The notes under the pieces were generated by a model. The model saw only the letters and a program-made list of their open reading frames with translations, did no database searches and had not been told where the DNA came from. From Bugula neritina (Eukaryota; Bryozoa; Gymnolaemata; Cheilostomatida; Bugulidae): 64,000 bases of DNA. Location: assembly GCA_964035545.1 (NCBI GenBank), contig OZ037766.1, positions 9,185,722 to 9,249,721 of the forward strand, given 5' to 3'. Position numbers and translations under genes: made by a program. Positions 1 through 57,950 of the stretch are shown piece by piece. Every line of letters starts with the position of its first letter. Position 1 is the first letter of the stretch.

Positions 1-5
1 TGTAG

Positions 6-3000
6 ACTTACTCTGGGCTCTTCTGTGTGGCTATCAACCCATACAGGAGGTTCCCCATCTACACCCAGGAAGTTATTGACTCCTACAAGGGCAAGAGAAG
101 GAATGAAACTCCACCTCACATCTTCTCAGTGGCTGACAATGCCTACAGTGACATGTTGATTGACCGTGAAAACCAGTCAATTCTTATTACGTATGTATTA
201 TTCCGCTCGGTCACCATCACTGTCCTCTTGTAGCTCATGAGAGTGGATTTGTGGTTGCAGTTGGCATTAACTTATGGTTGTGGTCTCATTTGATACAACT
301 GTTCCCAAACATGAGTGAAAAACCCATTCAAATAATGGAAAACAATGGGACTGTTGTGTATATGGTATATTTGATTACAAGTGCTATTGTGGGGAAATTA
401 ATATTTTTTGGTTTTCATAATATTGTGCTGCTTGTTGTAAGGTCATTAGCTTTATTTATTAAATAAGTCTTCCCTATTTTTCACACTTTTAAAGACTGTG
501 TTTTGGGTTATTTGCTTCTTACAGTAATACTATTGTGCTGTGTTTAAGATTTCCCTTGTTATTGGAACTTGGAAGTAAACAGTAAAAATATTTTTTCCTT
601 TCAACAGTGGAGAGTCTGGAGCTGGAAAGACTGAGAACACTAAGAAAGTAATTTCTTACTTCGCAAACGTAGCTGCTGCTTCCAAGAAGGGAGACGAGGA
701 GGAGAAGACCTCTCTGGAGGACCAGATTGTGCAAGCCAACCCCGTTCTTGAAGCTTACGGCAATGCCAAGACTACTCGTAACAACAACTCCTCAAGATTC
801 GTAAGTTTTCCTGAGTTTATAGTCTTTAGAACCAATTTCTAACCCTTCCCGAGTTTTCTTTCATCTGTTTTCATTTCCCTTATCTTGGTCTCATAAACTA
901 CAATCTGAAGTCAAATATGTTACATTCAGAAACATAAGTGACCACTATTTTTTATACCATTTAATAAAATTTTAAATAGACATTTTGAATATATGTTTTG
1001 CATAAAACAAATACATCTTTGGCTAATGAGTTTCTTATTGGGAATAAAATATGATAAATAATTGTGATTTCAAAGTTTATGTTGTCATGCTTCCCTTACC
1101 ATACCCTTGCTTGCAAACCTTGTAAAATATCACCTTCCATGATGTGTTAGTGTTGATTAAGTACATACAATATGCAAGTTGTCATCTCTTGTATAGCTTA
1201 GAGAGGACAATTCAACATGACTCTTGTTATAAATACAATCTTATAAGTATAATATTAATATAGCATATGGCTTTTGGAAAGAGAATTATTAAATATTGAT
1301 CAATAATATATTTAGAATATATGTGCAGTATATAATTGATATTTCTATGTTAATTTAAACATGTGTGTCTTCCCTCTAAGAAATTTTATGTTGCATGACG
1401 GTGTTTCCACATGTAGATGTTTATTTTTCTTCTATTACCCGTGTGATTTATTTACAATGCAGACTGTGGTGATTGCAATAACATACGGCTTACCCTATAC
1501 TCTCCCTGATGTTATACCCTGCCAGCTACATGGTTAGTTTATTCCTAGTGAGTAGTGTGACCATTGTACCAACTGTCTCAAGTATTATAGTTTCTTCAGT
1601 ATCAATTTTTTACACATTTATTTCTTTTAAAAACTGTGAAGTATCGATTTTGCAAAGATATAATATTTTAATATTAGACCTTATACAGCATTTTAAGGTA
1701 GATTTTGGTAAGGCCAGCTTTTATTAAAGTTTTGCATATAGTTCAAGTTTTTATACAAAATGCTTTAACATTACGGTATATAGTATTTTCATGTGCAAGA
1801 ACTGTTTTATTTATTCATGGTGTGAATTTTCCATGTTTAGGGAAAGTTCATCAGAATCCACTTTGGTACTACTGGTAAGATCGCTGGAGCTGACATTGAA
1901 TTCTATTTACTGGAGAAATCAAGAGTCACCAGTCAGATGAAAGCCGAGCGTAATTACCACATTTTCTACCAGCTGCTTTCACCAGCCCTTCCTGGGCTAC
2001 ACGAGAAGCTGCTGGTGGCGCCTGATCCTGGCCTTTACTCCATGATCAACCAGGGTGTGCTCACTGTTGACGGTATTGATGACGTTGAGGAAATGAAAAT
2101 GTGCGATGAGGCTTTTGCTGTTCTTGGATTCACGGCTGAAGAGAAATTGTCTCTCTTTAAAGCAACGGCTTCTATCCTCCATTTTGGTGAAATGAAGTTC
2201 AAACAAAGGCCAAGGGAGGAGCAGGCTGAAGCTGATGGTACAGCTGAAGCTGAAAAGGTTAATAATATAAATTCTTGCTAGTTGTGGTGATTCCATTTTA
2301 GCTCCTGTGAAAATTAAAGTCTTGCTATGCTAGTTTTGCTCAAAGAATATGCTTGTCACGTTTTGTCCAAATATTTTGTCAGGTTGCTTTCCTTCTCGGT
2401 GTCAATGCCAAGGATCTGTTGCAAAACATCCTGAAGCCCAGAGTAAAGGTTGGAACAGAGTTTGTAACTAAGGGACAAACAATGGCACAGTGTGACTACT
2501 GTATCCAAGCCACCGTCAAATCTCTCTACCATCGTATGTTTGCCTGGCTGGTTGAACGTGTGAACAAGACTCTTGATACCAAAGTCAAAAGGCAGTTCTT
2601 TATTGGTGTGCTGGATATTGCTGGTTTCGAGATCTTTGAGGTAGATCAAAATTTTAATTACAAAACTTTTTAATTTGCAAAAAATTACCTTGAACCTATT
2701 GTAGTCAAATTTTTAATTGAACAAAGTAGTGTAGTCATTGTTTCTTTCAACTCTAAATTATAAATTGTTATGCATGTTTGTAATCTTTTGTTTTTTCTTT
2801 ATTTTTTAGTACAATGGATTTGAGCAGATTTGCATCAACTTCACCAATGAACGTCTCCAGCAGTTCTTTAACCACCACATGTTTGTCCTGGAACAGGAAG
2901 AGTACAAAAAGGAAGGAATTCACTGGGAGTTCATCAATTTCGGCATGGATCTTCAAGAATGTATTGACTTTATTGAGAAGGTGAGAAATTCTCGGCTGTA

Positions 3001-6000
3001 ATACATAAAATCTTGTTATATAGATATACATGTTATTTTAATTTGTGTAGTTTTGTTAACATAGTGTTTCACTACATTTTTACACTTGGACTGTAAATAT
3101 ATGCAATTTTAATGTTTTTTAGCCTATGGGTCTGTTTTCCACTCTGGAAGAAGAGTGTATTGTGCCAAAAGCAAATGACAACACTTTCAAAGAGAAACTT
3201 TATCAGCAGCATCTTGGCAAGACTCCGTGCTTCACCAAGCCCAAGCCTGTCAAGGGGCGCGAGGCTCATTTTGAGTTGAGGCATTACGCTGGTACGGTGC
3301 ACTACTCCATAACTGGCTGGCTTGAAAAGAACAAGGATCCAATCAACGAGTGTATTGTCACTTTACTCTCTGAATCTAAAGAGGCTCTCATTGCCTTCCT
3401 CTTCAAGAAACCTGAAGAAGTTAAAGGTGGTGGTGGAAAGAAGAAGAAAGGTGGTGCTTTCCAGACCATTTCCTCAGCTCACAGAGAGTCTTTGGGAAAG
3501 CTCATGATCAATCTGAATAGTACATCTCCTCATTTCATCAGATGTATTATTCCTAATGAAACCAAGTCACCTGGAGTAATTGATGCTGAGCTTGTACTCA
3601 ACCAGCTCCAGTGTAATGGTGTGCTTGAGGGCATTCGTATTTGCCGAAAAGGATTCCCCAACAGGATCGTCTACTCTGAGTTCAAACAGAGATACACAAT
3701 TCTTGCTCCCAATGCTGTCCCCGCTGGCTTTGCTGATGGCAAAGTTGTAGCTGAGAAAGTTCTGGGATCTTTGGCTCTTGATGCTAATGAATATCGTCTG
3801 GGAATCACCAAAGTTTTCTTCAAAGCCGGAGTTCTTGGAGGTCTTGAAGATCTGAGAGACGAAGCTTTGACCAAGATTATTTCTAGATTCCAGGCCTTCA
3901 TTAGAGGTTATTTGATGAGGAAGAACTACAAGAAACTGCAAGATCAACGAGTTGCTCTTTCCGTCATCCAGAGAAACATCAGAAAATGGCTACTTCTGAG
4001 AAATTGGCAATGGTGGAAACTGTATCTCCGTGTCAAGCCTCTACTCAACGTTGCCCGTGCTGAAGATGAGATGAAGAAGAAGGAAGAGGAATGGGCAAAG
4101 ACAAAGGAGGAGTTGGAGAAGATTACCAAGCGGTACAAGGAGCTGGAAGAGCAGAACTTTGACCTGACCAGAGCCAAGAATGACCTGACCTTGGAGTTGG
4201 CTACTTACGAAGAGGGTGCAGCCGATTCTGATGAGAAGATGGCCGGCCTCATTACTCAGAAGGCAGATCTGGAGGCTCAGCTGAAGGAAATGGAGGATCG
4301 GCTGATGGACGAAGAAGATGCCGTTTCTGATCTGGAAGGAGCCAAGAAGAAGCTGATTGGTGATTGCGAAGAACTGCGCAAAGATGTTGAAGATCTTGAG
4401 CAGGCTTTGTCCAAGGCAGAGACTGAGAAGCAGAGCAAGGATCACCAGATTTCCACTCTGCAGGGCGAGATGGCACAGCTGGACCAGCAGATTGCTAAAC
4501 TGCAGAAGGAAAAGAAGAATAGCGAGGAGAATAGCAAGAAACTCACCGAAGATTTGCAGGCAGAAGAGGACAAAGTCAACCATCTTAACAAGATCAAACA
4601 AAAACTTGAGGCCAATCTTGATGAGGTGAGTTATATGATTATTTAGAGATCATCGATTTTGATTACTTTGATCATCAAGTGTCAATCAGTTTGTGATGTA
4701 TTCAGCTAATTTTGATTAATAACTTATAAAATCGGTAAAAATAACTCATCAACTTTTTGTAGCTGGAAGATTCTCTTGAGAGAGAAAAGAAGGTGCGTGG
4801 AGATGTGGAGAAGGCAAAGAGGAAGGTTGAAGGAGATCTGAAGATGACTCAAGAAACAGTTGAAGATCTTGAGCGAGTGAAACGTGAAATGGAGGAGTTG
4901 GTTCGTAAGAAGGAAGGCGAGATCAATGGACTGAACGGGCGTCTAGAAGATGATGCTGGTCTGATTGCTAAACTGCAGAAAACTATCAAGGAACTTCAGG
5001 TATTGCAATTCATGTGTATTCTTTAGTATAATGTACTTACATTGGTGCATGATAGAAACTTCACAATAACTTATTTGATTTAAAAAATTGTTTTGCTATA
5101 CATTTGATCAAAGCAACAAAATTTTCATTATTTTATATATTATATTACTCTATACTCTATATTACTCTGCCCACTACTTTGTTTAAAAAATCAATTTTAA
5201 TCATGTAAATATTTACTCTATTTTTTGTGCACTGAATTAATCATCTATTCCGCATGTAGTGTGCTAGTGCTAGTGTGCTAGTGCTAGTGTGCTAGTGCCT
5301 ACCAAATTTATCAGTGATACTAATTACTCTTTAATTTATGGTTTAATACGATTTTGGCTGTTAGTATGTTATCACAGCTTGCTAATTACGCCATATGGTG
5401 TGTTAAAAAATGTTAACTTTTACACTCAGTTAAAAATCAATTATTTTATCTTTTCGTATAAGAGTATCCCTAACTATATCATGTACTGTGAGCTGTAAAA
5501 TAATCAGTGCATTAGGCTGCAGCTCGCAATGTAGAATGGCTTCATCTGACAGACGCGGCTCACACATAGAACTTTATTCGGATATTGAATCAGAGTTTTC
5601 CGACAGTCAAAGCATGATAAATAACGGGGATAGTTCGCGCAAGTCTTCAGATTCCGCTTGGGGGTTAGATACTGGGGATGCTGGTCTTACCGATGCGTTT
5701 TATGAAGTGCCTCTTCCTCACACACCAGCACCAGAAGTCTTCATGCCAGTTTCAAGTACAAAGCTGCCTCCCGTTGGCAGATACATATCACAAGTTTATA
5801 TTAGTAACAATATTTCACACAGAAGCAAACGTCACATCCGTGATAGCCGAGAGTTGGAAACGATACCTCAAGTTAATCGCAATTTGCTTGAAGTAAATTT
5901 TACTGAAATACCACATTTTTTACTATATGTTCAGGTGCTCAAATTGGCTGACCATATAAAGTGGTCAGCTGTATTTACTTTTTGACATTTATAGAAAATC

Positions 6001-9000
6001 AAATGGAGTATTACGTGTTTTACAGGCTCGCATTGAAGAGCTCGAAGAGGAGCTTGAAGCAGAGCGTGCTGCTAGATCTAAGGTTGAGAAACAACGCAAT
6101 GAGTTGCAGCACGAGCTTGAGGATCTCTCAGACCGTCTGGATGAGGCTGGTGGCGCAACCGCTGCTCAGGTAACTTGCTACATTCTGTAGAATTAAGGCT
6201 ACATTGTATATTGTATAACCTGTGTAGTTGAATTGTAAGTTTTTTAAGCTACACTCTTTTATAATTTTGCAGTTGATAGTCCTTTGGTTTATTAAATTTC
6301 AAATTAAATATAAAGTTATAGTTTTATATTTTTATGGTACTTTTATCTCATGGTTCATTAATATGATATGCAGGTTGAGTTGAACAAGAAGAGAGAGTTG
6401 GAGTTGCAGAAACTAAGGCGGGATCTCGATGAGCAAGCTATGCAGAGCGAGGCTACCTCAGCATCTCTCCGCAAGAAGCAACAAGATGCCGTTAATGAGC
6501 TCTCCGATCAAATGGATCAGCTTACAAAGACTAAACAGAAGTAAGTGTTGTTGGATTATTTAGTTTAAACTAACCTCTTTTTAATAGACAAAGTCCTAAA
6601 TTTTGCACTAGCATTGTTTAGAAGTATGTACGTAGTTTTAGGTTTGAATATAATCATTATTATCAACTTTATTCATGTAAACTTTATGAAAAAATTCTTT
6701 AATTCACTTATGCAATTTTTAAAGGTCCAAGATAGTTTTTTAAATTAAGATGATTCAACAGCTTATTTGTATACTCTGATGGTCTAGTAGTGATAATGAT
6801 ACTTTGTACATGAATAGATATATGAATTACTAAGAGTTTTTTCTCTACACAGGGTTGAGAAAGAAAAAGCTCAACTCAAATCTGAATTGGATGACCTTGC
6901 CGGACAACTGGAGATGATGGGTCGCAGCAAGGTAAGCTTTCAAGCAGGAATGTGCTTTTGCAATCAAATCTTTTACAGCTATTTGTGTTTGCTCAAATAA
7001 CCAGTAAATTTATAAGTTGTAGACTACAGGTATATTAATTCAACATTGACACTAGGATAGCCATGAAATTAATTAACTTCTAATACTAAAATGTTGTATT
7101 TAACAGAGTAATGCTGAAAAGCTTGCCAAGTCTCTGGAAGCCCAACTGTCAGAGTTGCAATCTCGATTGGATGAACAAGGACGCCAGATAGTTGACTTGA
7201 ACAGCAGCAAGAGCCGCATGGGTCAAGAAAACCAGGATCTGTCCAGACAGCTTGAGGAGGCTGAGCACTCAGTCGGAGCTCTCACCAAACTCAAGGCTAA
7301 GCTGCAGTCTGAACTAGAAGAACTCAAGCGTAGTCTTGAGGATGAGACCCGCATGAGATCCAAACTTAGTAACGAAGTACGTAACCTGCAAGCTGATAAT
7401 GACACTCTCAGAGATCAAGTTGAGGAAGAGAGTGAAGGCAAAGCTGAAGTGCAAAGACACATGGCTAAAGTTCAGGGAGAGTTGGCATCATTGAGGGCTA
7501 AGATCAATAGTGGTGAATTCGGAAGTGGTGAAGCCAGTGAAGAAATGAAGAGGAAGATGGCAGCACGCGTTGCTGATATGGAGGCTCAACTGGAACAGGC
7601 AAATGCTAAATGCAGCAGTCTGGAGAAGGTCAAGAACCGATTAACCATTGAGATTGAAGATTTGATGGTAGAAGTGGAGCGCGCAAATTCTGCAGCCTCT
7701 GCATTGGAGAAAAGAGAGAAGCAATTTGATCGTACGTTGCAAGAATGGCAAGCAAAGTACCGTGATGCTCAAGCAGAACTTGAAGCTTCTCAGCGTGAAG
7801 CTCGAGGCTACTCCACCGAAGTATTCAGATACAGGTCGCAGATTGATGAGATTAATGATGTTGTTGAGTCTCTTCGAAGAGAAAACAAGAACTTGAATGA
7901 GGAAATTCATGACATCACTGATCAGTTGAGTGAAGGAGGACGCAATACTCATGAACTAGACAAGGCCAGGCGAAGATTGGAGAAAGAAAAGGAAGAGCTT
8001 CAATCTGCCTTGGAAGAAGCTGAGGCAGCGCTTGAACAAGAAGAGGCCAAGGTCATGAGGTTCCAACTTGAGCTCAGTTCTGTTAGATCTGAAATTGAGA
8101 AAAGAATCTCAGAAAAGGAAGAAGAATTTGATAACACCAGACGTAATCATGCCCGTACTCTGGAGTCAATGCAAGTTACTCTAGATGCTGAATCTAAGGG
8201 AAGGTCTGAAACACTCAGGCTGAAGAAGAAACTGGAACAAGACATCAATGAACTTGAAGTTGCTCTTGATGTGGCCAACAGAGGACGGGCAGATGCAGAG
8301 AAATCTGCCAAGAAATATCAAATCGATCTTCGAGATATCCAATCTTCATTGGAGGAAGAAGTTAGACAGAGAGATGACTTGCGTGAGCAACATGCTCTTT
8401 CAGAGCGAAGATGCACCATGCTCAACGGAGAGATTGAAGAGATGAGAACCTTGCTGGAGCAGGCTGAAAGAGGCCGCAAATCTGCAGAAGGTGAGCTTCT
8501 TGAAGCCGCTGACCGTGTGAATGAGCTGTCGGCATCTAATGCTCATGCCAACGCTCAGAAGAGGAAACTTGAGGGTGATCTGTCTTCTCTCAACTCCGAC
8601 CTGGAAGAGGCTAGCAATGAGCTGAGAGCGGCTGAGGATAGAGCCAAGAAAGCTGCTCAAGATGCAGCTCGTCTTGCTGAGGAACTTAGAGCTGAGCAAG
8701 ACCACAGCATGCACTTGGAAAAAATGCGCAAACAGTTGGATATGCAACAGAAAGAATTGCAAACCCGTCTGGATGATGCTGAAGCTAATGCTTTGAGAGG
8801 CGGTAAACGTGCTCTAGCTAAGTTGGAGGAGAGAGTCAGATATTTGGAAGCCGAACTCGATGGTGAACAGCGACGACACCAAGAAGAAATCAAAGTATCT
8901 AGAAAAACCGAGAGACGTCTCAAGGAGTTGCAAATGGCTGCTGATGAGGACAAAAAGAGCCAAGAAAGACTCACTGAACTTATTGACAAGTTGCAGAAGA

Positions 9001-9610
9001 AGATCCAAGTTTACAAACGTCAAGTTGAAGAAGCTGTAAGTTGGACAATACTTCTGTCTATACTTATATACTACTTGCAGTTGTGCATTTACTGAATGAT
9101 TAAGTGTGCTACTGCTTTATAACTGTTGATATCTGTAGTGGGATAATTTAGATTGCGTTGCATTGCTTCTAAACAATCAGAAATAGTTTAATTTCACCAC
9201 ATATTAGCTTAGCTATGAATTAAATTTGCTCTAACTTGATGATCGACTCTCTTGTGAAATTATAGGAGGAGATTGCTGCTGTCAACCTTGCTAAGTACCG
9301 CAAGGTACAGCACGAGCTTGAAGAAGCAGAGAACCGAGCTGATGAGGCAGAAAACAGTGTTGCCAAACTTCGCAGCAAAAGCCGCAGCAGCATGAGCCAA
9401 TCACGAACAGTTTCTGGTGGTGGTCCAGGAGTAAGTGTTTTAGTTAAAAACATTATATTCACTATGCCATAATCATAAATATCAAGTTTTGAGTAATAGA
9501 AAACCTTCCTTATGATAGCAAATGCCTTACGCTAAACATTGTGTTGTTAGAGCTCTGTGGTGATTAAAACAACCCGAAAAGTTGTCAGCAGCTCTACTAC
9601 TGAGCAATAA
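6..9610 (+). CDS. Mhc: Muscle myosin II heavy chain (5' partial)
   Basis: Actin-based motor and thick-filament rod of muscle. Exons: 6-190, 608-800, 1841-2257, 2383-2640, 2810-2980, 3123-4625, 4763-4999, 6026-6169, 6374-6540, 6853-6931, 7107-9035, 9266-9430, 9551-9610 (stop TAA). All junctions are GT-AG and the sum is 5508 bases, or 1835 residues. The family is usually about 1940, so about 110 N-terminal residues lie upstream of the window. Visible motifs: P-loop GESGAGKT (split by intron 1 before its first Gly), switch I NNNSSRF, switch II DIAGFE, a Gly/Lys-rich loop 2, the SH2/SH1 helix [14 protein letters not shown], two IQ regions for light chains ([29 protein letters not shown]), then an uninterrupted heptad coiled coil and a Ser/Thr-rich non-helical tail. 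No duplicated, mutually exclusive motor exons were seen; introns 2 (1.0 kb) and 7 (1.0 kb) are the only long ones. Intron 7 holds a separate start exon. Identity is certain; the striated or smooth isoform class is not resolved. Confidence 0.96.
5256..5298 (+). repeat. 14-bp tandem repeat upstream of the rod-isoform exon
   Basis: About three copies of GTGTGCTAGTGCTA lie in myosin intron 7, some 240 bases before the internal ATG at 5536. Each unit contains CTAGTG twice. It may be neutral or part of the internal regulatory region; nothing in the sequence decides this. Confidence 0.7.
5457..5463 (+). promoter_or_regulatory. TATA-like box for an internal myosin promoter (tentative)
   Basis: TATAAGA at 5457 stands about 30 bases before 5487, a usual TATA-to-start distance. 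That would give a 5' leader of about 48 bases ahead of the ATG at 5536. TATA-like words are common in AT-rich DNA, so this is suggestive only. A leader exon spliced at the AG just before the ATG is an alternative. Confidence 0.25.
5536..5892 (+). CDS. Catchin/myorod-like alternative first exon inside myosin intron 7
   Basis: Open frame in the intron between myosin exons 7 and 8. ATG at 5536 starts [19 protein letters not shown]; the frame runs 119 codons to a donor at 5893 (GAA then GTAAAT) in phase 0. The acceptor at 6026 opens exon 8 in phase 0 too, so splicing gives 119 unique residues plus the C-terminal 847 residues of the myosin rod, about 966 in all with no motor. An alternative phase-0 donor at 5935 (CAG then GTGCTC) would add 14 residues. 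The unique part is Ser-rich and polar, with RKSSDS as a possible kinase site and a Pro-rich centre ([11 protein letters not shown]). It is not coiled coil and resembles no motor sequence. From family knowledge, molluscan catchin/myorod has a unique Ser/Thr-rich N-terminus on a rod of roughly 830 residues from the myosin gene, and Drosophila myosin rod protein uses an internal Mhc promoter. That this exon is the homologue is inference; transcript evidence is lacking. Confidence 0.72.
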
Positions 9611-9617
9611 ATGAAGT
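9551..9617 (+). CDS. Mhc: Myosin C-terminal exon 13a (included form)
   Basis: Acceptor TTGTTAG precedes 9551. The exon encodes 19 residues, starting [10 protein letters not shown] and ending SSSTTEQ, then TAA at 9608-9610. A strong donor (AGT then GTAAGT) begins at 9618, seven bases after the stop, so the exon can be spliced onward with exon 13b as 3' UTR. AATAAA at 9606-9611 overlaps the stop codon and might instead allow cleavage here. Inclusion or skipping of this exon would decide the myosin tail, as in the penultimate exon of Drosophila Mhc. Confidence 0.75.
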
Positions 9618-10093
9618 GTAAGTTTTCTTGTCAACTGTTGGTCTTACTGCTTTAGAAATGTGTCCTTGTGCCTAGCATGTAAATGTAGCTTTGCAAGCTG
9701 TCAATCTCTTGCAATTCATGTTTTATTTCTACTGGCTAGCCAGCACTTCATACATTTGTTCATTATTTACAGTTCTAAATCATACTTGGGTATGTTGGTA
9801 TTGAGTGTTAGTAGGTATTGCTGCATGTTATCATTCCCTTCCCAGAAGTACTTATAGTCTGCATCACTAAATATTATTATATTATTCCACATATTACTTT
9901 TTTTTTAAAATATGAAACTTTGACTCGCTTTCTTTTTTAAATATTAACTCACACCATAAGCTTACTTTGTTATGTGTGGCTAAGCATGCAAATAACCAAC
10001 AATGACATTTCAGATTAAATAGAATAATATAGTATATACAATTATCAAACTCTTTTGCATTTTGTAACTGTTACATATAAATTGTTATTTCAG

Positions 10094-10183
10094 TATGCTA
10101 GTGGTTACTCCAGCTCCAAGTATAGCCAAAATTCACGAACTGCTTCACAAGCTGAGTATGATGGAGAAAGTCAACAGGAATAA
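10094..10183 (+). CDS. Mhc: Myosin alternative C-terminal exon 13b (skipped form)
   Basis: A good acceptor (TTGTTATTTCAG) precedes 10094. Joined directly to exon 12 (ends at 9430, phase 0), it reads 29 residues, from YASGYSSSKYSQNSRTAS to a QQE end, then TAA at 10181. The tail is Ser/Tyr-rich, uncharged at first, and contains SRTAS, a possible basic-directed phosphorylation site. This composition is typical of non-helical tailpieces of invertebrate muscle myosins. The alternative tail 13a is shorter (19 residues). AATAAA at 10179-10184 overlaps this stop codon too. Confidence 0.7.
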   Translation, partial: YASGYSSSKYSQNSRTASQAEYDGESQQE

Positions 10184-10308
10184 ATATTTTATTCAAGCCA
10201 ACCTTTGTGTCCTCAAATACAGAAACACTCATTTATCTATACTAGTATTTCAATCAAATGATACAGGATGCCCGACCTGTGCATTATTGAATTCTGTGTT
10301 ATAGATAA

Positions 10309-10314
10309 AATAAA
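10309..10314 (+). terminator. Poly(A) signal of the myosin gene
   Basis: AATAAA lies about 125 bases after the exon 13b stop and before the convergent gene's own signal. It is the best candidate for the distal 3' end of myosin transcripts. Confidence 0.55.
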
Positions 10315-10460
10315 GGCACACACTATTTATATATGTTTTAGTTTTTTGTCTTGGTTTCATTGTTTGAAGAAAATTAGAATAATTATGATATTTTTTGTTA
10401 TAGTTCAGCTTTTGTACTTTTAGTAGTAAAAGAGTGTGACCACTGCATATCTTTATCTTC

Positions 10461-18426: not shown

Positions 18427-19420
18427 AAAGAAAATGTTTGGTAACTGGGACAGGGCTCAGCAATTTTGGTAGCTAATTGTTACAAAGTATAAACAATATT
18501 TATAAGTATCTGTTGTAAATTGTGCATATTAAGTTATGACAATTTTTGTTCAATTATTTTATTTATCTTGGCTGCTATTATTTCAGATAATTAGTAGTCA
18601 TCTTGAATCTTTATTCTGTAAGCTAAAGCATAACAAAGCTATTTTTATTTTGAAAACTGTTTATAAACCTTTATTTTTACATAATATAAATATGTTTAGG
18701 TTTTCATTAGTTTATTCTTGTTATAAATTTAAAAAGTACAACTCCGTGCTTTTCTGTTCAATAATTTATATTTAGCGAAAACCAAAGCAGAGTGAGTGAA
18801 GTGTTAACACTGAATCAATATTGACCGCGTTTGTTTACATTAAGGTGCAACAACCCTTTTTCTTTTCAAAATTAAAGCAGTGGGGTCTTTTTGAGTACTG
18901 TAGTTGTAGCTGTAAATTAGAACAAGCCAGATCTAGTCTTAATGAAATTTCTTTATCAGATGCATGTATATTACAACCCCAGGGCGCGCCTTGTTAGCAA
19001 GATTAAATTGTTTTGTCTATTTAGCTTCTGTATTTAAGGAAAACAAAATTTGCTGATACAAATGCTATTTATTTTTGGTTGCATTTACTGTAGTGTTCAT
19101 TTAATTATTCAGCATATTATTATTAAGATCAACAGGTTGAATTTATTTGAACAATGTTCCAGTTTTATCGTTATACCCATCTACATTGTATTCGAAAGCA
19201 AAGAAGTTTATCAAAATAATTATTTATTATTAATTATAGTTTATTGACATTGCTTATTTTCATTCTTGCTTCTGTTGTTGGAGTATAAATGTTATTAGGT
19301 TCAAATATTTTAGATATATGCAACTTGAATATTTAGGTTGTATGCTTTATTTTTTAAAGTTAATAAAGATTATAATCATGTTGTAGAATGCATTACTGAT
19401 TGGGTACTCTAGCAGTCAGA
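18427..19420. other. Upstream region of the ZnT1-like gene
   Basis: About 1 kb of AT-rich DNA between the MITE and the zinc transporter ATG. It should hold the promoter and 5' UTR. I saw no convincing cluster of metal response elements (TGCRCNC) by eye. A lone GGGCGCGCC word occurs near 18982. No coding frame is convincing. Confidence 0.4.
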
Positions 19421-22400
19421 ATGGGGAAATGGACCGGCAAAGCCTGCCGTCTTATCGCTATGCTTTCCCTTACATTCAGCTTCTTCCTCGTGGAACTAAT
19501 AGTAGGATATACTACCAACTCTCTAGCACTGGTAGCTGACTCCTTCCACATGTTATCAGATGTAGTTGCTCTTATAGTAGGCCTATTGTCAGTCACCGTA
19601 AGTAAATTCTGCCGCTTTTTGCTTTATTCAAAAAAATTTAGTGTCAGCTCAAACAAGGTGCTTACATAAATTTGCAAATTTGCCAAAGCTTTTTTACATT
19701 GTCAATAAAAATTATCCACTGTATGAATAATGTGCCATTGAACTAATTTCCATTTTTCACATCTGCTTTTACAGTATGCAAAGAAGGGTTCATCAAAGAG
19801 CAACACGTTTGGTTGGGCAAGAGCTGAAGTTCTGGGGGCGAATGTAAATGCTGTGTTTCTGGTAGCCTTATGCTTTACTATATTGGTGGAAGCCATTCAG
19901 AGGATGGTAGAGTTAGAGCCCATAACCAATTCCAAACTGCTGCTCATTGTTGGAGGTGTGGGTCTAGGAATCAACCTCATAGGCCTGGCATTGTTCCACA
20001 ATCAAGGTAATTGATCATCTGCATATGGTAGAACATCTGGCCTGCGTTCATCATGCTTTTTGATCTGCAACATTGTACACAAGGCCATTCTGTTGGAATT
20101 GAAAGCTGTACAGAGATATGTATGTATGTATGTATGCATGCATGCGAGATAGTATTGTATAATTAGCCTATTAGTGAATGAGAGAGGTGGATCAATATAA
20201 ATGTGTGTCAAATACAACTTTGAGTTTGCATGATTTTCTAGCTCATGGCCATTCACATGGAGGGGGTGGGCATGGCCACTCCCATGGTGGGGGACATAGT
20301 CATGGTAAAAAAGCCAAAGGGCATGGCCACTCTCATAATGGAAACTCTAACAGTCATGAGAGAAAACCCCTCCAAGGTTGGTATAATTATCCTCATTATC
20401 TTTGTTTGTTCTAAAAGTACATATTTATTATACATTTTCTCTTTTAATTCAAGATATTTAGTTAAGTTCCTCATCCTTGATGTTATACTCACAATAATTT
20501 TTCAACTTTGATATATCTTTAGATCATGCTTTCTAAACTTAGTTCCAAAAATTATTTTAATGAATGTTTAGACAAAACAACCTCAAAATTTGCTAGGACA
20601 GCTAATTAACAATAATGACTTGTAGAAGCTGAGTCCAGACCTGAGATTGAGAACGAGGACTCAGATGAAGATAATGCTGAAATATCTATTGATGTGAAAC
20701 AAATGGATGGAACCATCAAAAATGTTATACTCACAAAAGATCCTAAACAAAGTAAGGTGTGGCGCTGATGCTTAACACATCATATGATATAGTAGCCTTA
20801 CTAGGTACAAGTAAACCTCCTATCACTACAGTCACAACTGAGGGGTTGAAGTGTTCAGTTTTACACGTTGTTGAACCCATCAATTTGATTAGTTGATTAT
20901 TCTCTGGCAAAGCATGCTAAATGTCTCATTTAAAGTTGCTTTGATAGGCTGACATATATATAAAATATGTGAGTTGATTTATGAATATACTAAAACTATT
21001 TTTAAGTTCAATAAATTCCATGCCATTCACTCTGTGCATGTAGTAATTAAGTGTGGTTACTTTCTAGGCTATTCTTTGTTATCTGTAAGGCAGTGCAATG
21101 AGTTTAAGCTACTAAACTTACCAGATAAATTTAGCTGCTTTCAGTACTGGCATAGGCAGAATTTTTTAGTAATTTTTCAAATCAAACCAAACCGGCAAAA
21201 TAGACTCTAAAATTCAAAATTCTTATACTTAGGTTTGGTAGCTTCAATCTACCACCTTTTTGGTGAAGGAAACTTGAAAAGCTAACTCAGAATTGTATAG
21301 ATGTGTATATATTTTGGCTAAATACAGCTCTACAAACTGATGGTTCTACATATTTGCAACCTGCAGACTTATTTCTTTTACTAGAAGTACTGGAGTGTTA
21401 TTAATACTGGATTTGAATCTGCCAAAAATTCAAGTGGCTAAAATGTCACAAAAAGTTCAAACAAAATTTATAGCATCGGTAGTTGATTTGATTGTATAAA
21501 TTAATGAACCAACTTATGTAGACTATACATGTTATATACAGTTCTACAAGCTTCTCGCATTACAATACTAGCTTAGATAGTTATTCTGTTCCCAATAGTC
21601 AACTGTTGCCAGCTGTAAGGCTTTGGATCAGCTGATTTAATGACTATAAGCGCTTTTTATGACTGCGAATGTGTTAAGCAAATACACAAAGCAGAATTTC
21701 TTTGTTTTACTACTGAGCAATTGTTAACCCATTATACTATCTAAAGGGTTTGGCTACTTTCTATGGACTCCTACTTTCTATAAGTTATGGTTGAGAGTAT
21801 CAATCAGCTGTATTTATCTATAAAAAGTTAGTACGACTGTACTTAGCTCTTCCTCCACACCATGGAGCAATTGCCTCGTGACCGTAGAATTGAGATTTAG
21901 TAATACTATTCCCACTTCCTTAATAATTCAATCTATTCAGATGCACCGCAGTTACTATCTGCTGTATACTAGTGTATAGTGATTTAATCTAATAAGAAAC
22001 TGCTTAGTATTATCAGTTTCATAACATGGCAAGCATAAGCTCTAGTATATATATAAGCTGGTCTCGCTGGTTGCCAATATGAGTTACTTCTTCCTAGCTT
22101 ATGTCACGTACAACATTTTCCAGAAAATGATATCATTGTAAACTTATAATATCTTATCCACTGTGATAGAATACAAAGCACTTTAGATTATTATTATTAA
22201 TCATTGATACTATTTATAGTTATTGTAGGCTTGTTTGTGTAATATTAGAGTTAGAGTGTGACTCAAGTTGCAAGTTGTAGGAGTTGTTTAGTGGAGATTT
22301 TAGCATTCAACTTCAAAAATATATTTGCTGAGTTAACCAAAAACATACTTTATGCTTATATTTGTATATATAAAATATTAATTTGAAATAGTATTGTAAG

Positions 22401-30485: not shown

Positions 30486-30834
<349 letters not shown>

Positions 30835-49600: not shown

Positions 49601-51554
49601 ACTTACTCACTCTAACCTAGTTTCTACTTGTAGAATATAAATCTAATTGGGGGAAGGGGTTGACTTTTACAAGTTACAGAAAGCATGATACTGTTCAAGA
49701 TCAACTAGCTACACACTACCTCTGTATTGTGAATTTCTTAAATGTTAAATATGTGGCTGGTTTTACTCAAGATCGCACAGTGATAAACAATGGTAGCTCT
49801 TGACATATGAGACTAGTCAACTACACCAGTTTGTAGAAATTTCCAATCTCAAGGTTGCTGTTTGTTTACTTCAATCTGAAGAGGAAAATAGCCAACAAAA
49901 TCTTGATTATTAGGTAACACTAACTGAATTCCATTTTCATTCTGATTCCAATATGCTAATACTAATACTGAGGCCAGTAAAAATATGAAATTCTAAATGA
50001 ATTTCCAAATGTAGCCGGGCTAACTTAGTTTACACCAAATTACTAACTTCCTTTCTAGGCTAAAACTCAAGGAGATGTTGAAACATGAAACAGTGGAAAC
50101 CGATAGCCACAGCATATCCATAGCACTAACACTGCTGTATACATAAAAAGTTGATGGTAGAATGAAAACTGGAAACAAATTTACCAACACTAGATAAAAG
50201 TGGTCACAAGTGTTAGTCAACGTCTGATGTGATATATAATCTATTGCAGTTTGTGCAGCTGCAAATTCTGCAAGCAACTTCAGGAGCTAAACGCAGGATA
50301 ATTGCAATGTGTATGGTGATTCCACTCTTAATTGACTATTTACCAAAGGTATATGCAAGTCCCTGAAGAGTATATTACCACTAGCTAAGCTCAGTTACTT
50401 ACAAGGCACTACATAAAGGATGGTATAGACCCGAGTAGCCTATACAATCCACCCACTCTCTGCTGGGACCCCTAGTGCTTATATTTCACTTTCCATACAT
50501 GTATTAGCTGACAATATAATATTATTTCATGCCATCACAACGCATGCTTCAGATGGCATGCTTCTAATGGTTTGAGGTCCATTGTTAGTTATGTCCAATA
50601 TCGATCTGTGTGAGTATAAAGCAGGTACCAACTATCATCATGCATAGCAGGTTCTACTGTATACTTTAGTTACTCTATTGTCACGTCAGTATTAAAAATC
50701 AAGTTTGTTGAATAACACTCTGGTTGTCAGGAAAAGAAATATAATGATGAGAAAGTATTGAACTAATTCAAGACAGCTTATTCCTATTCCAATGCCCTTT
50801 TTAGCATGTGAAATCAAAAACTATTGTACTAAATAGAAAAGGATATATAACTGCATTTAAGAATTTTTTTGAGATTTATAAAAATATTATGTGCTTTCAG
50901 CTAAAAGTTAGCTGCTTAAGTACGGGAATGAATGAATCTAAAAGAAGTTTCGTAGAACCAATTGTAGTAGAAAAAGAGGACCATTGAAATTCAACAACCA
51001 ACTGACAACATTTTGAAAACTGAGAAGCCGACATCTTCGAAAACCGACAAATTTAATGGAATTGCAAGACAACTCACAGTGCCTTAAGCAAAGAATTTAA
51101 AAACACAATTCTCAATTTCTGCTGAAATATAATTTAAACTTAATGCTTGACTACAGACTGTAAGGAAACTGCTTACCCTAACAATTTCCAGCATCTCACT
51201 TCGAGAAATGAATCCATTACCATCCAGATCGTACATACTGAATGCCCACTTCAGTTTCTGCTCCAGCTGCCCCCTCGATGTCACACTGAGTGCACAAATG
51301 AACTCTCTGAAATCAATTGTCCCGTCACGATTTGCATCAAACGTGCGAAATACGTGCTCAGCAAACTTTGATGCATCACCATAAGGAAAGAAGTTCCCAT
51401 ATATTTTCTTAAATTCTTCAACAGTCAAGTGTCCTGATGGACAATCTTTAAGGAACCCCTTATACCACTCTGTGATTTCCTCCTCGTTAAAAGAGGTTTG
51501 ATCCTTGAGGTCGCTAATAACTTCTGGTCGCAACTTGCTTGTCCCTTTACCCAT
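46621..51554 (-). CDS. Hippocalcin/neurocalcin-type neuronal calcium sensor
   Basis: Calcium-myristoyl switch protein of neurons. Two coding exons: 51554-51177 and 46821-46621, giving 192 residues (human hippocalcin and neurocalcin delta have 193). The start [10 protein letters not shown] carries the N-myristoylation Gly2. EF1 is degenerate with the family's CPSG, as in all members. EF2 (D73-E84, [12 protein letters not shown]), EF3 (D109-E120, [12 protein letters not shown]) and EF4 (D157-E168, [12 protein letters not shown]) keep all binding positions. The C-terminal part ([13 protein letters not shown], then [15 protein letters not shown]) is almost the vertebrate sequence. The intron is phase 0, just before AIYKMV, and 4.35 kb long (46822-51176) with nothing recognised in it. 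An acceptor (TTGTTACAG) lies two bases before the ATG, so there is probably a non-coding 5' exon upstream. It is next to a paralogue in the same orientation. Which of hippocalcin or neurocalcin it corresponds to cannot be said, since that split may be later. Confidence 0.95.
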
Positions 51555-54500
51555 GTCTGTAACAATCCAATCTTGTAGCACTTATGAAGGATTTCCAAAG
51601 ATACTATAATTTAAAGATACAGCACATTAATAGACTTGGACTCGAGCTCAATTGCCACACTGCGAGTCAATATACAATAAATATATTTATAAATGTATAA
51701 TATTTATATTACAAAAGCATTGCTACCACTCATATTGATTTTACACCAACTTTGCTATATTTATAGAAAAATTTAGGATTTACAATAAGAGACTGCATGT
51801 ATATAAGTAGCAATGACCAGTCTTATCTGAATATATCAAAGATAGCAATTAATGTAATTCTCTATTCACCTACCCAACAAGTGCTGAATACTAAAGTGTA
51901 AATACAGCTACTATGTCAAATAAAGGGACGGTTTGGCCAATCACAACTATTGAGTTATTCATATAGAGCTTACGTCAACATAAAGCAACTAGCAATGAGG
52001 AGATGCATGAATAATTGCCGCTTTTTCTTCAGCATTTGTGTATATAATGCAGTGGATGCAAATAGCAAATAAATATTAATGGGATTACATATCATGAATA
52101 AACATGAGCTACAAGCAAACCTTATGCAAACCGCTGCTAAGTCATTTTTCATAAAAACGATAGGGTTACCATCTCGAACTTGCTGTAGCATGCAGCAGTA
52201 GTAGATTGAGAATGTAATCCAAAAACACAAATTGAATACATGAAACTAAATCCCAGCAGTTTTAATCCAAATTTATTATGGTATTTTGATAAAAACAGCT
52301 TCTGAATTAATTCCAAAGCGCATATATACAAATTTTAAAATAATTAAACTTTTTAGGGGTTCAACTGTGAACATTGAGAAAAGTTGAAAAATTAAAAAAT
52401 AAAAACATCGCATGTCTAATATAAGCCAAAATTTTAGCTACAACAAACTGTTTTTGGAAGTTGTAGCAGAAAATAACAGTACGCTACATGAATGGAGTTA
52501 GTTGTGAAGGCCTGCACGCTGAGTGTATTGATAAATATACATTACTGATTGTACTCAAAGGCCTTATAAAAGATGACATAAATTATTAGAAATTCCTGTA
52601 TATAGGAAATAACTTTTCCAGCATTCTCAAGCAGTAGCTGCATAAATGACTCACTAAATCATTAAATTTCCTACGGTGTTTGGCCAAATGAAAACGGCAC
52701 ATTTTAAACCTTTTTGCTACAAAAAAGTGGTAGCTTATTGTATCTAATAAGTATGAAGATGCACATGATACGATAGTTTTGCCATTTTATAACCTAAAAG
52801 AAATGGATTATTTTAAAAAAAATTGAGAACTTTTTTAACTAGTTTTTCAATCATTTTTTGAAAGGCCACTACGTGAAAACTTAAATAACATAAAACTGTA
52901 GTCAATATTTACCAGAATTATATAATTTAAACTTCGCAAATAAATGTAGAGCAAAGAAGTTGGGCCAAAGTTTAAATTGCTAAGTTTTTACAGCAATGAT
53001 AATATATTTAAATGGTGGAGTTGGAAAAGATGGAAGTCTTAAAACTGAGGGATCATAAAGTTACGTGGTTGCCATTGATTTTACAATAAAAAAGTAATCA
53101 ATCATCATATTGTAAAAGAAAATTGGAAAAGGCGTAGCATCAAGTCTACTAGCTAAGGAAATGACAAACCAAAGCTAATCAGGTAGATTGTTATAAAATT
53201 GCAAAAAAAGGAACAACTATCAACTGCTCTCAGCATAATCATTATAACAAACAGTACTTAAATCATTACTAAATTTAGTAAAATGATAAATAGATTCTAA
53301 AAAGGGTCAAGTCATTAATAGGTAAATTATAAACAATTCAACGCAGAAATAGCTTTGCTGTATTCAACTACAGCCAATAATTTTTTTGCATAATTCTTTT
53401 AACAAGTATAACCACGTGCAATATAAAAACTACTACACCACTATTTTCAAAATGAAACGTAATGAAATTTAGCAAGTGTTGCAGATGAACTACCATTCAG
53501 CTTCAGCTTTAAATAGTCATGGGTTATTGAGAACAGCTAACTGACAGCATATAATAACTGACGGGAAACTGTTTACAAACTGTAAGAATTTTCAATTGAT
53601 GACTAAACTAAGCACAAAAATTAGGCTTTCAACGTTAGGGCGTAGGTTCCTGTGCATACAATTATTGAATTTCCTTTAATGCAAATTATTAAACATTTAG
53701 CTATAAATTCACCAAATGAATATTTAATTGTAAGTCATTTGCCACTTTATTGAGGTGTGCTAAATAAGTTGAATAGCACAAAAATTTCGAGATATCTCAC
53801 TTTGGTACCATCAATTCACAAAGACAAATAAAGAAATTTTCTGTAATGACCAAATTTTTATTTTTGCCAGTCAGTGAACAGACAGGCCGATTTCAGTTTT
53901 AAAGCAGACAGAACAGTGTGAAAATAAGAAACCAGTTAGCAGTAGTTCTGCTCAACTATGTAATCCAACTGTACAGTCACTAAGAACTCAGAAATTCAAC
54001 ACTTTCTGATTTCCTCATAGATGAATATTTCGATGAGGATTCCAGAATAGTTTTGACCTAACCTTGTTACCTAAATTCCTATTTAGCTCTGATTAATTTA
54101 GTCACTCTAATATTGCATTTTACTTGAGATTTTGAAAACAACTTGGTAGTTGACTTTCCTACCTAACTCATGGTGACCTTGATTGCTGTGGTCTAGCATT
54201 TAGCTATAAAAAAAAACTTTTATAGTTTATAGTCCCTGTGAGAAAACCCCTGATGGAAGGGGTTTTTGTTAAATCGGGCTAAGGACTTGTTTAGATGAGG
54301 CACAGGAGCAATTATGACTGGATGCTCTTCCTAACATCACCAATGGCCTTTGGCTTGAGAAGTTAAAAACACTAACTAGTTTTTAAGACAGCAAACATAT
54401 TTAAATGAATTGCATTAAATTCATAACTGTGATGATTTAGAGTGGTTATATCTCAAACAAAAACAAATTTCTTACTAGTTTAATAGTAAAAAAAATGAAA

Positions 54501-54970: not shown

Positions 54971-57950
54971 TTATACATCATTAGAACTGTTGGCTGTGAG
55001 CATAGAACAAAGTACGTTATCAGCTAAACAGCCATCTATGAACTCTTTCTTTGTAAGGACGCCATCTTTGTTTTTATCCATTTGAATAAAAATTCTCTCA
55101 GTTCTTTGCTCTGGTGTTTCCTGGGGTGCCTCTCTATCGCTGCTACTAACCATTCTGTATATTGCCTACAAAAAGTGCTTTAACTATACTCATTGCTGTA
55201 AATAGTTTACAATTATTTAGTTCAACTTCTATAAAATGTTCAAAGACCACGAGCATAAGAACTACGGTGATAGTTCAAACTAAAGTTGTTCATGTATTAG
55301 AAGATAACTTGTATCATACCTGATATTTGAAAACTGCTAAATGTGAATGTAAAGTAAATTTTGAAAAATTGAAAAACAGTTAATAACTTTTTAAACTTAA
55401 AGTAATAACTATTAGAATAACCATGTAAACTGTAAACCTTTGTCTGAGCACACTTATACAGTGGCAACACTGGATAGTCCATGTGCGACTTTTTGACAAC
55501 TCTACTCAGATACAGAGCTTTTATTAATAAATACACATCAATAGCACATCTTAAGCATCCAGCTTGGTAGTTAGTATAATTTAGGTGTGCATAACTGCGT
55601 TAGTAAAAAAAGTAAGTGTGTGATCTAGTTTTATCTGGTTGTCTACAACGTACATCAAAACACGATTAAAATATACCAACTACATATGTAAACCACATAT
55701 ATAAACTCATGAAGCTAATGTATTTTTTTAAAACAAAATTAACTCTTTATAATTAGTTACTAAACAATGAAAAATGAAGTTAAAATTACAATACAAGAAA
55801 ACTGGCCTATACAAAATATGGCATATACAGAATTTGTTCCACTTATCTAATGCCACTCAAAAGCTAGACATTTCTTTGCTGTTTCTTGTAAGGAAGTTGG
55901 TTTATTGCAGTTGTGAAACTTATACTATTTTAGTAGTTCAAATAGAAGCATAATAAATGGCATAACTTTGAGATAGTTAGATGGAAGGACAACTCCTATA
56001 TTGAAAGTGTTCATATCACCTTCTCTTGAAACTATGAAGCACAACTCCTAATACATAAACAACTGACCTTCTATTCCTTTTAAATTTCAGTATGATACAA
56101 AAGAACCCTTATTACGATACTCACACTAATAATTTGAACCATTTCAGCTTTCTCTATGGTCCCATTTCCATCAATGTCGTACATAGAGAAGGCCCAGTTG
56201 AGTTTGTCGGAAATTTTCCCAGAAGAAGTTATGTTTATAGCCAAAAGGAACTCCTTAAAATCTATAGTTCCACCATTGTCAGCATCAAATGTTCTAAATA
56301 CATGTTCACAAAATTCTTCAGCATTTCCACCAGGAAAAAACTCGGAGTATACTTCCAGAAACTTCTGTCTGCTCAGCTGGCCAGCTGGACAATCCCTCTA
56401 AAATTACAATGTTCTTACATTAAGTATTTGAACATCATATATACCATTAGCTTACTGAAAATAATGTTCTGACACACATACCACATATTTACATTACATC
56501 GTTTCAACATGATTGCAACTAGTTGATAATAATATAAGTATTCTCTCCAGCTCAAGTGGTGAAATACGGGCTGCGTGAAAAACATTCCCATAATCACTGG
56601 CTTCTACCTATCATGGTTGATTGTGTTCAGTGCATTTGTATCATAACTTTGGTCTTATTAGTTTCCTTCTCTTATTTGAAATGAATGTTAGAAAATTTGG
56701 CTACATTCAGGTCGCCTATCTAGTATCTACAACGGGTTGGGACTTTATTTTATTTATTTATCAAGTTAACCACTCACTACTCTACAACCATACTTTCTCT
56801 TGTTGTCAGTTTATTTTAATTTTGAACAGGTGTGTAATATATCAACACACCATCTCGGCTGCTAACAATTGAGAATGAATATGTTGATTATTTAACACAA
56901 ATACTGATAGCACCAGAAGAAATCAATGTCACTAACAAGCATGGCAAGTAGTCTTGTATTATTTTGTAACTTAGTAATGGCAACCTGCTTTTTCTACCTC
57001 TTAAGTGTATGAGCTACTCAGCCCAGATCAATTTGGCAGTTTTTTAATGAATTGACTGGCCTTGGATATAAGCTGAGCAGATGGATTTACCAAAATAGAA
57101 GTTTCACGTGTTTCCAGGTCCTGACTACAGGTGAAGTGAGATGAAGCATGAGGAGCTGGTGAGAGAAGTGCACATGGAGAGTGAAGGGGCGAACAAGTGC
57201 AGATTTCCTCTGAATTACAAGACTAGTTGAGCTACATCAAATAGCACTAAGGTTTAAGAGTAGTGATGGTGGCCAGCTGGTAGATGTGAAGAAGAATAAT
57301 TGGTATCAGAAAATATAATAGAAGTAAACTGGATGAAACCCTATTAGAGGATTAATTAATAGCAAGGTGCCTCTGTATTCAAACAGTTAGTTATTATAGC
57401 ACCGCTGAGCATCTATTTATCATTATACATATAGGTCATTATAAACAGGCTCAAAATAAAAGGTGAGTGAAGGCACCAATTAATGATTACAAATGTTGGC
57501 TGAAAACTAGGTTAAAATTGATTACGAGTAGTTCATCTACACCTTCATCAACATTAAGGATTGTTATGCATCATAAATTCTAGGGATAGCAACAGAAACG
57601 TAAAAACTGCAACAAATGTATATAATATTCTCTGATGCAGCATTTTTATATTATATACACCACAAAAAGAAACTTATATCATACAATAACATCAAAACTC
57701 ATTCATTGATTCATAGCCACACTGATCACAGAGTTGGTATATCATTTAGGACATTTTGTGCTGTTCAATACACACAAATAGCTCTTATAATGTTCGGTTT
57801 CTCAGTTAACTAAAAGGTAGATGAAGTCTACAGGCTACTCACCATAAAGCCTTTATACCATTGCTTGATTTGAGCTTTGCTGAAAGTAGTATTGGCTAAA
57901 AGAAAAGCTAGATCTTCCTTTGGAACATGTGATGAAGAACTTCCACCCAT
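54971..57950 (-). CDS. Divergent neuronal calcium sensor (recoverin/VILIP superfamily)
   Basis: Three exons: 57950-57843, 56397-56125, 55165-54971; 191 residues, all junctions phase 0. [10 protein letters not shown] gives a Gly2 for myristoylation. EF1 is degenerate ([12 protein letters not shown], with the family CPxG). EF2 is D74-E85 ([12 protein letters not shown]), EF3 D110-E121 ([12 protein letters not shown]), EF4 D157-E168 ([12 protein letters not shown]). EF2 has Gly at loop position 5, where Asp, Asn or Ser normally supplies a side-chain ligand. The last intron lies before AIYRMV, at the same place as in the neighbouring hippocalcin-like gene, while the first intron (before RDCPAG) is absent from that gene. 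The C-terminus ([12 protein letters not shown]) differs from all the well-known classes. It is probably an old paralogue rather than a recent copy. Introns 55166-56124 and 56398-57842 show nothing further. Confidence 0.9.

Follow-up and report, generated by a model that had tools for sequence, protein, structure and literature searches.

The myosin locus and a predicted alternative first exon

The DNA analyzed here (the window) is a stretch of 64,000 nucleotides from the bryozoan Bugula neritina (assembly GCA_964035545.1, contig OZ037766.1, positions 9,185,722 to 9,249,721), and coordinates are given within it. On the plus strand it carries a muscle myosin heavy chain gene. The window opens just before one exon of this gene, whose 5' end, with MAYDPNYAPWKEYL, lies upstream of the window; the 13 exons inside the window join into one myosin reading frame with no internal stops (Table 1). 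When the myosin head was compared with PDB, the top scores per aligned length, among the best 60 of 158 matches, belonged to 1qvi, 1kk7, 3i5f, and similar entries, and we take these to be scallop and squid myosins. The intron at 5000 to 6025 is 1,026 bp long, 3.3 to 8.6 times the length of the six other rod introns (120 to 312 bp, coding part). We predict that it holds the first exon of a short transcript encoding a motorless rod protein of the catchin/myorod type. An initial annotation of this DNA called it intron 7, a number that counts from the window edge; the gene itself begins upstream.

Within the intron, an ATG at 5536 opens 119 codons that run to 5892, where there is a splice donor (GAA/GTAAAT, 5892/5893); the next rod exon begins at the acceptor TTTTACAG/GCTCGC at 6026. 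The join from 5892 to 6026 is in phase 0 and gives 119 unique residues plus 847 rod residues, 966 in total, with no stop in the rod. Our analysis reproduced the coordinates, frame, and lengths that the initial annotation had given for this product. With a donor matrix built from the gene's own 12 donors, the GT at 5892 scored 7.7, the highest in the intron, against a range of -0.1 to 10.5 for the 12 donors when each was left out in turn; the donor that opens the intron (CAG/GTATTG, after 4999) was the lowest scoring of the 12. A second donor suggested initially, at 5934, proved weak (1.5 versus 7.7). The ATG has A at -3 and G at +4, and a six-frame search of the B. neritina genome with the 119 residues returned a single match, this exon.

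The sequence TTCAG/GTGC at 5934/5935 (within 5915 to 5940) is acceptor-like and scored 8.6, second in the intron after 6026. Since this acceptor-like site directly abuts a GT, it is a candidate recursive splice site.

Alternatively, the frame might serve full-length myosin as a cassette exon, or it might be a small gene of its own that ends at 5985. It does extend past the donor to 5982, which in principle would allow a small protein to be made without splicing, and it contains two in-phase AGs as well as the good-looking acceptor at 5935. However, no in-phase AG that would continue the upstream rod exon was found 5' of ATG 5536, and the two AGs within the frame (exon starts 5596 and 5644) scored -7.0 and -12.1, compared with a range of -2.3 to 8.1 among the acceptors of the gene. 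A cassette exon is therefore unlikely. Beyond 5892 the frame has a codon log-odds of -0.93 and looks noncoding, and the similarity to catchin-like proteins described below is in register with an exon end at 5892. We regard both forms of this alternative as very improbable.

Comparison of the reading frame with chance

We also considered that the intron contains no exon and that the ATG, the donor, and the phase are coincidental. The stop-free frame that encloses the predicted exon spans 183 codons; the longest such stretch in the other 11 window introns of the gene is at most 91 codons. In 5,000 Markov resamples per model, each of 1,026 nt and of intron or exon composition, frames of at least 183 codons arose at frequencies of 0.0004 to 0.0006 with intron composition and 0.006 to 0.012 with the exon's own composition. 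The codon log-odds of the open reading frame was +0.14 per codon, versus -0.70 to -1.07 for the flanking intron.

Two of these measurements speak for chance rather than for an exon. Frames of 119 codons appeared in 0.02 to 0.06 of resamples with intron composition and in 0.16 to 0.24 with exon composition; the ATG frame is therefore not convincing by length alone. Two reverse frames of the same stretch scored +0.11 and +0.16, similar to the open reading frame, which shows the coding signal to be compositional and not frame-specific. Against coincidence stand the rarity of the 183-codon frame, the placement of the intron's best donor at the matching phase, the length of the intron relative to the other six, and the junction-anchored similarity to catchin-like proteins. 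On balance, a chance frame is improbable.

G+C content, measured in 60-base bins, was 0.40 to 0.52 over 5480 to 5779 and 0.32 to 0.38 over 5780 to 5899, the last part of the exon. Bins 5' of 5480 had values of 0.18 to 0.32, save one of 0.48 at a tandem repeat. This repeat, which lies in the same intron 5' of the unique exon (5257 to 5298), consists of three perfect copies of a 14-bp unit (TAGTGTGCTAGTGC).

A rod junction shared with catchin-like proteins

A search with the rod scored 7,988 candidates, of which 1,467 were significant, and the best 120 of these 1,467 were examined. Among the best 120, 12 proteins have fewer than 1,150 residues and an alignment that covers part of the first 300 residues of the rod. 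Of these 12, two (P0041, 1,021 residues; P0083, 990 residues) have a long unrelated N terminus that reaches up to the start of the Bugula rod exon; the other 10 either extend into upstream myosin sequence or have their first residue no more than 63 residues from the junction. When the N-terminal domain (N-domain) of P0083 served as the query, a second search added P0121 and P0122 and brought the proteins listed to 122. This search has limited sensitivity, since it did not recover P0041. Among the 122 listed proteins, four environmental proteins (P0041, P0083, P0121, and P0122; source labels jgi and lgn) thus share the layout of a unique N-domain followed by a rod.

The N-domains of these four catchin-like proteins are 172, 144, 146, and 145 residues long, longer than the 119 residues in Bugula, and all four terminate in a strongly conserved sequence, ...H[IV]S.ESR.VMRKGFDLG..SP.LRM.YD. 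Their rods are 47 to 51% identical to the Bugula rod and open with A, Q, T, or A followed by RIKELEEEL, at the same aligned position as the Bugula rod start, the junction in the four being placed by alignment where rod similarity begins. The statement in the initial annotation that the junction falls at the place matching that of catchin is supported by this comparison with the four catchin-like proteins. In the predicted Bugula short form, this residue matches position 1113 of myosin-7, well inside the rod.

A quick LG+G4 tree of the rods had 42 rows: 44 of the 122 proteins were entered, three of them were removed because their overlap was short, and the window was added. In it, the four catchin-like rods formed one clade (SH-aLRT, 100), and these four, Bugula, and two proteins with the label merc formed a set of seven (99) that was separate from the vertebrates, the arthropods, a priapulid, and a nematode. 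We read the set of seven as spiralian, a reading of the weaker kind given that the tree is quick, uses no mixture model, and contains no named spiralian.

Three further proteins with the label merc (P0086, P0089, and P0091) have rods that fall among arthropods in the tree and start 10 to 30 residues before the same junction; they are either rod-only products or fragments. No myosin relative was confirmed in a search of genome- and viral-contig collections.

Relationship of the N-domain to catchin N-domains

Whether the unique N terminus is related to that of catchin was left open by the initial annotation, and our comparisons answer in two ways. The end of the exon supplies a natural register, which permits a gapless, column-by-column comparison anchored at the junction. 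Compared in this way with the four N-domains, the last 42 Bugula residues scored 13.75, against a shuffle mean of -36.4 (standard deviation, 11.8; p = 0.0001). Windows of 30 and 45 residues gave p values of 0.0006 and 0.00025, and the family-wise p over window sizes of 20 to 60 was 0.00045. The junction register (offset 0) was the best of 75 offsets. The score was matched or exceeded by 1 of 11,121 stop-free six-frame 42-mers of the window and by 10 of 173,434 42-mers from 118 other proteins. When the five junction-adjacent residues were omitted, p was 0.0009; when the anchoring was omitted, it was 0.0086. Taken singly, each of the four N-domains gave a p of 0.0002 to 0.0022 against Bugula, the four being mutually dependent (25 to 33 of 42 residues identical). 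A pre-junction motif, S..[IV]S..S[RK]..[MI]R....L, is partly common to Bugula and the four proteins.

Several other results count against relatedness. Gapped Smith-Waterman alignment of the N-domain with the four was not significant (p = 0.19 to 0.93), and a hidden Markov model (HMM) of the four N-domains scored -0.8 bits on the Bugula N-domain. Only 5 of the 22 invariant columns are identical in Bugula (S at -26, S at -23, R at -18, L at -13, and R at -5). A search with residues 1 to 140 of the 966 against 5.8 billion proteins gave 1,057 candidates, none with an E value of 1 or less; our guess is that catchin isoforms may be masked there by full-length myosins that represent 90% clusters. Finally, the anchored test was devised after a multiple alignment had been viewed, and for this reason we call homology of the Bugula N-domain to spiralian catchin N-domains probable and not proven. 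The likeness is faint and confined to the last 42 residues.

These negative comparisons are what would be expected if Bugula had acquired an internal first exon of its own, in parallel to the myosin rod protein (MRP) of Drosophila, and if the encoded N-domain had no relation to that of catchin. In Kollmar and Hatje (PMC3912159), MRP N termini are described as lacking conservation even between Drosophila and mosquitoes, which favors such an origin. On the other hand, the Bugula rod starts at the same aligned residue as the rods of the four catchin-like proteins while MRP starts elsewhere, the N-domain match has p values of about 0.0001 to 0.0009 when anchored, depending on the variant, and is still at 0.0086 unanchored, and all five rods fall in one supported set of the tree. 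Independent invention is, in our judgment, unlikely though not negligible. It shares the claim of a short transcript with the explanation that we prefer, and the odds of the two overlap.

The explanation we prefer is that 5536 to 5892 is the first exon of a short myosin transcript, which would encode a motorless protein of the catchin/myorod type with 966 residues and with an N-domain that is probably homologous to that of catchin. Judged from sequence, we put the probability of this reading at about 0.74. At the sequence level it is supported by an uninterrupted frame, by splice signals and a phase that fit, by the rod itself, by the position of the junction, and by the absence of any in-phase acceptor 5' of the ATG. 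The predicted bryozoan protein probably goes back to a spiralian ancestor rather than being a new invention.

Comparison with known motorless rod proteins

The catchin exon has been reported in Aplysia, Biomphalaria, Crassostrea, and Lottia (Kollmar and Hatje, PMC3912159), and that paper, which also discusses myosin genes from several flatworms and two annelids, does not mention the exon there. In the part of the open literature covered here, catchin/myorod is described only from molluscs, and among the papers that contain both "catchin" and "myosin" none has a title concerning a bryozoan; a full-text literature search for "myosin rod protein" together with "bryozoan" found no paper. The initial annotation had remarked that a host other than a mollusc would extend the catchin architecture beyond its known range, and B. 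neritina is such a host.

The predicted Bugula form fits catchin in architecture: it would share its rod exons with full-length myosin, have an N-terminal exon with its own start, and join the rod at the catchin position. Like mollusc catchin/myorod, it would be a product of a muscle myosin gene composed of a long N-terminal exon and the C-terminal rod (PMC12040844, PMC4410989, PMC5963113, and PMC3912159), the rod being 847 residues long compared with about 830 in mollusc catchin. The two differ in host and in the length of the N-domain (119 versus 156 residues). The catchin N terminus is reported to be nonhelical (PMC5963113), and the Bugula N-domain is predicted to be nonhelical and disordered on the basis of a low-confidence model: an AlphaFold2 single-sequence model had a predicted local distance difference test score of 55 and placed helix only at residues 104 to 106 and 115 to 118. 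No match to the 119 residues was found in Pfam or PDB. Serine and threonine make up 21% of the domain, and, as in the mollusc proteins, there are possible phosphorylation sites, with PKA-like consensus sequences at residues 6 to 9 (RRGS) and 35 to 38 (RKSS). Ser104, 16 residues before the junction, was considered as a counterpart of mussel Thr141, the residue phosphorylated by smMLCK, and was given no weight; the residue is Gly in all four catchin-like proteins, and its placement assumes that the 156-residue length and the Thr141 numbering refer to one protein.

The initial annotation had also likened the Bugula form to Drosophila MRP. The analogy holds insofar as both have an internal start in a muscle myosin heavy chain gene, a motorless rod isoform, and a unique N terminus, but it goes no further, since MRP begins directly behind the motor and light-chain region and is about 260 residues longer (PMC3912159), whereas the Bugula rod starts well inside the rod. 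Mhc8 of Lottia gigantea begins exactly at the scallop catchin start and is likewise a rod-only product from the catchin position, but it is a separate gene that lacks a unique N-terminal exon (PMC3912159).

Proposed expression and role of the short form

If the preferred explanation is right, an internal promoter in the intron, for which TATAAG at 5457 is a candidate, would start a short mRNA that joins the unique first exon to the rod exons from 6026 onward, which full-length myosin uses as well. A true counterpart of catchin/myorod would occur as mRNA and as protein on the thick filaments of tonic muscle. No MEF2 or CArG sites were found in 5000 to 5535. The same interval has a raw count of three E-boxes. 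The start-stop pair just 5' of the main ATG could damp translation of the short form. Via its shared rod, the protein would form a coiled-coil dimer and coassemble with myosin, and the disordered N-domain would sit at the surface of the thick filament in place of the heads. In mussel, phosphorylation of the myorod N terminus raises the actin-activated ATPase of myosin in filaments that contain both proteins (PMC4410989), and myorod/catchin has been proposed to act as a tether in catch (PMC12040844 and PMC5963113). By analogy with mussel myorod, phosphorylation of the Bugula N-domain, with RRGS and RKSS as candidate sites, would tune actomyosin activity or tethering.

Homology of the N-domain would place the internal start in an ancestor older than the molluscs. 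It is possible, if somewhat doubtful, that catchin, as a motorless and phosphorylatable thick-filament protein produced from an internal myosin start, predates the split between bryozoans and molluscs and that it serves bryozoans in catch-like, energy-saving holding by their own tonic muscles. If true, a bryozoan exon joined at the same point of the rod would date this thick-filament component to before the molluscs, and the question of which other animals have catch-like muscle would become testable. The pre-junction motif and the fixed junction could help annotators to find hidden catchin exons in spiralian myosin genes.

Other features of the gene and the window

TABLE 1 Features of the B. 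neritina myosin gene in the window
Feature	Position(s)	Strand	Basis
Predicted alternative first exon (119-residue Ser-rich N-domain)	5536-5892	+	Reading frame, splice scoring
Stop-free reading frame enclosing the unique exon (183 codons)	5434-5982	+	Longest in 12 window introns
Splice donor GTAAAT, best scoring of the intron	5893-5898	+	Donor matrix
Last 42 N-domain residues, gapless match to conserved end of four catchin-like N-domains	5767-5892	+	
Start-stop pair ATGTAG, one base 5' of the main ATG	5529-5534	+	Sequence
TATAAG, TATA-like candidate core promoter, 79 bp 5' of ATG	5457-5462	+	Motif scan, inferred
Myosin exons 5' of the key intron	6-190, 608-800, 1841-2257, 2383-2640, 2810-2980, 3123-4625	+	
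Upstream rod exon, full-length myosin only	4763-4999	+	Gene model, splice scoring
First rod exon; acceptor common to full myosin and predicted short form	6026-6169	+	Gene model
Rod exon	6374-6540	+	Gene model
Rod exon	6853-6931	+	Gene model
Main rod exon (Myosin_tail_1)	7107-9035	+	Gene model, Pfam
Rod exon	9266-9430	+	Gene model
C-terminal coding exon with stop, one of two possible C termini	9551-9610	+	Sequence

With the exon at 9551 (9551 to 9617) included, the protein ends in ...STTEQ; a donor-like GTAAGT lies at 9618, 3' of the stop. If this exon were skipped and the preceding exon joined to 10094 (10094 to 10183), the C terminus would be ...YASGYSSSKYSQNSRTASQAEYDGESQQE. Both C termini would apply to the short form as well. 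A tblastn search of the gene's introns (1 to 10400 and the part upstream of the window), for which only the part of the myosin encoded in the window served as the query, found no mutually exclusive exons; many mollusc myosin genes and the Capitella gene do carry such exons (PMC3912159).

No Rfam family and no tRNA was found in the window. Exons of a cation efflux transporter (Pfam PF01545) lie at 19400 to 20011 on the plus strand, and we read them as SLC30/ZnT type. A GC-skew dip at 30 to 32 kb is probably due to a 338-bp (AC)n microsatellite at 30487 to 30824. Two adjacent EF-hand genes (Pfam EF-hand), of the neuronal-calcium-sensor type as judged by eye, occupy 51087 to 51581 and 56083 to 56397 on the minus strand.

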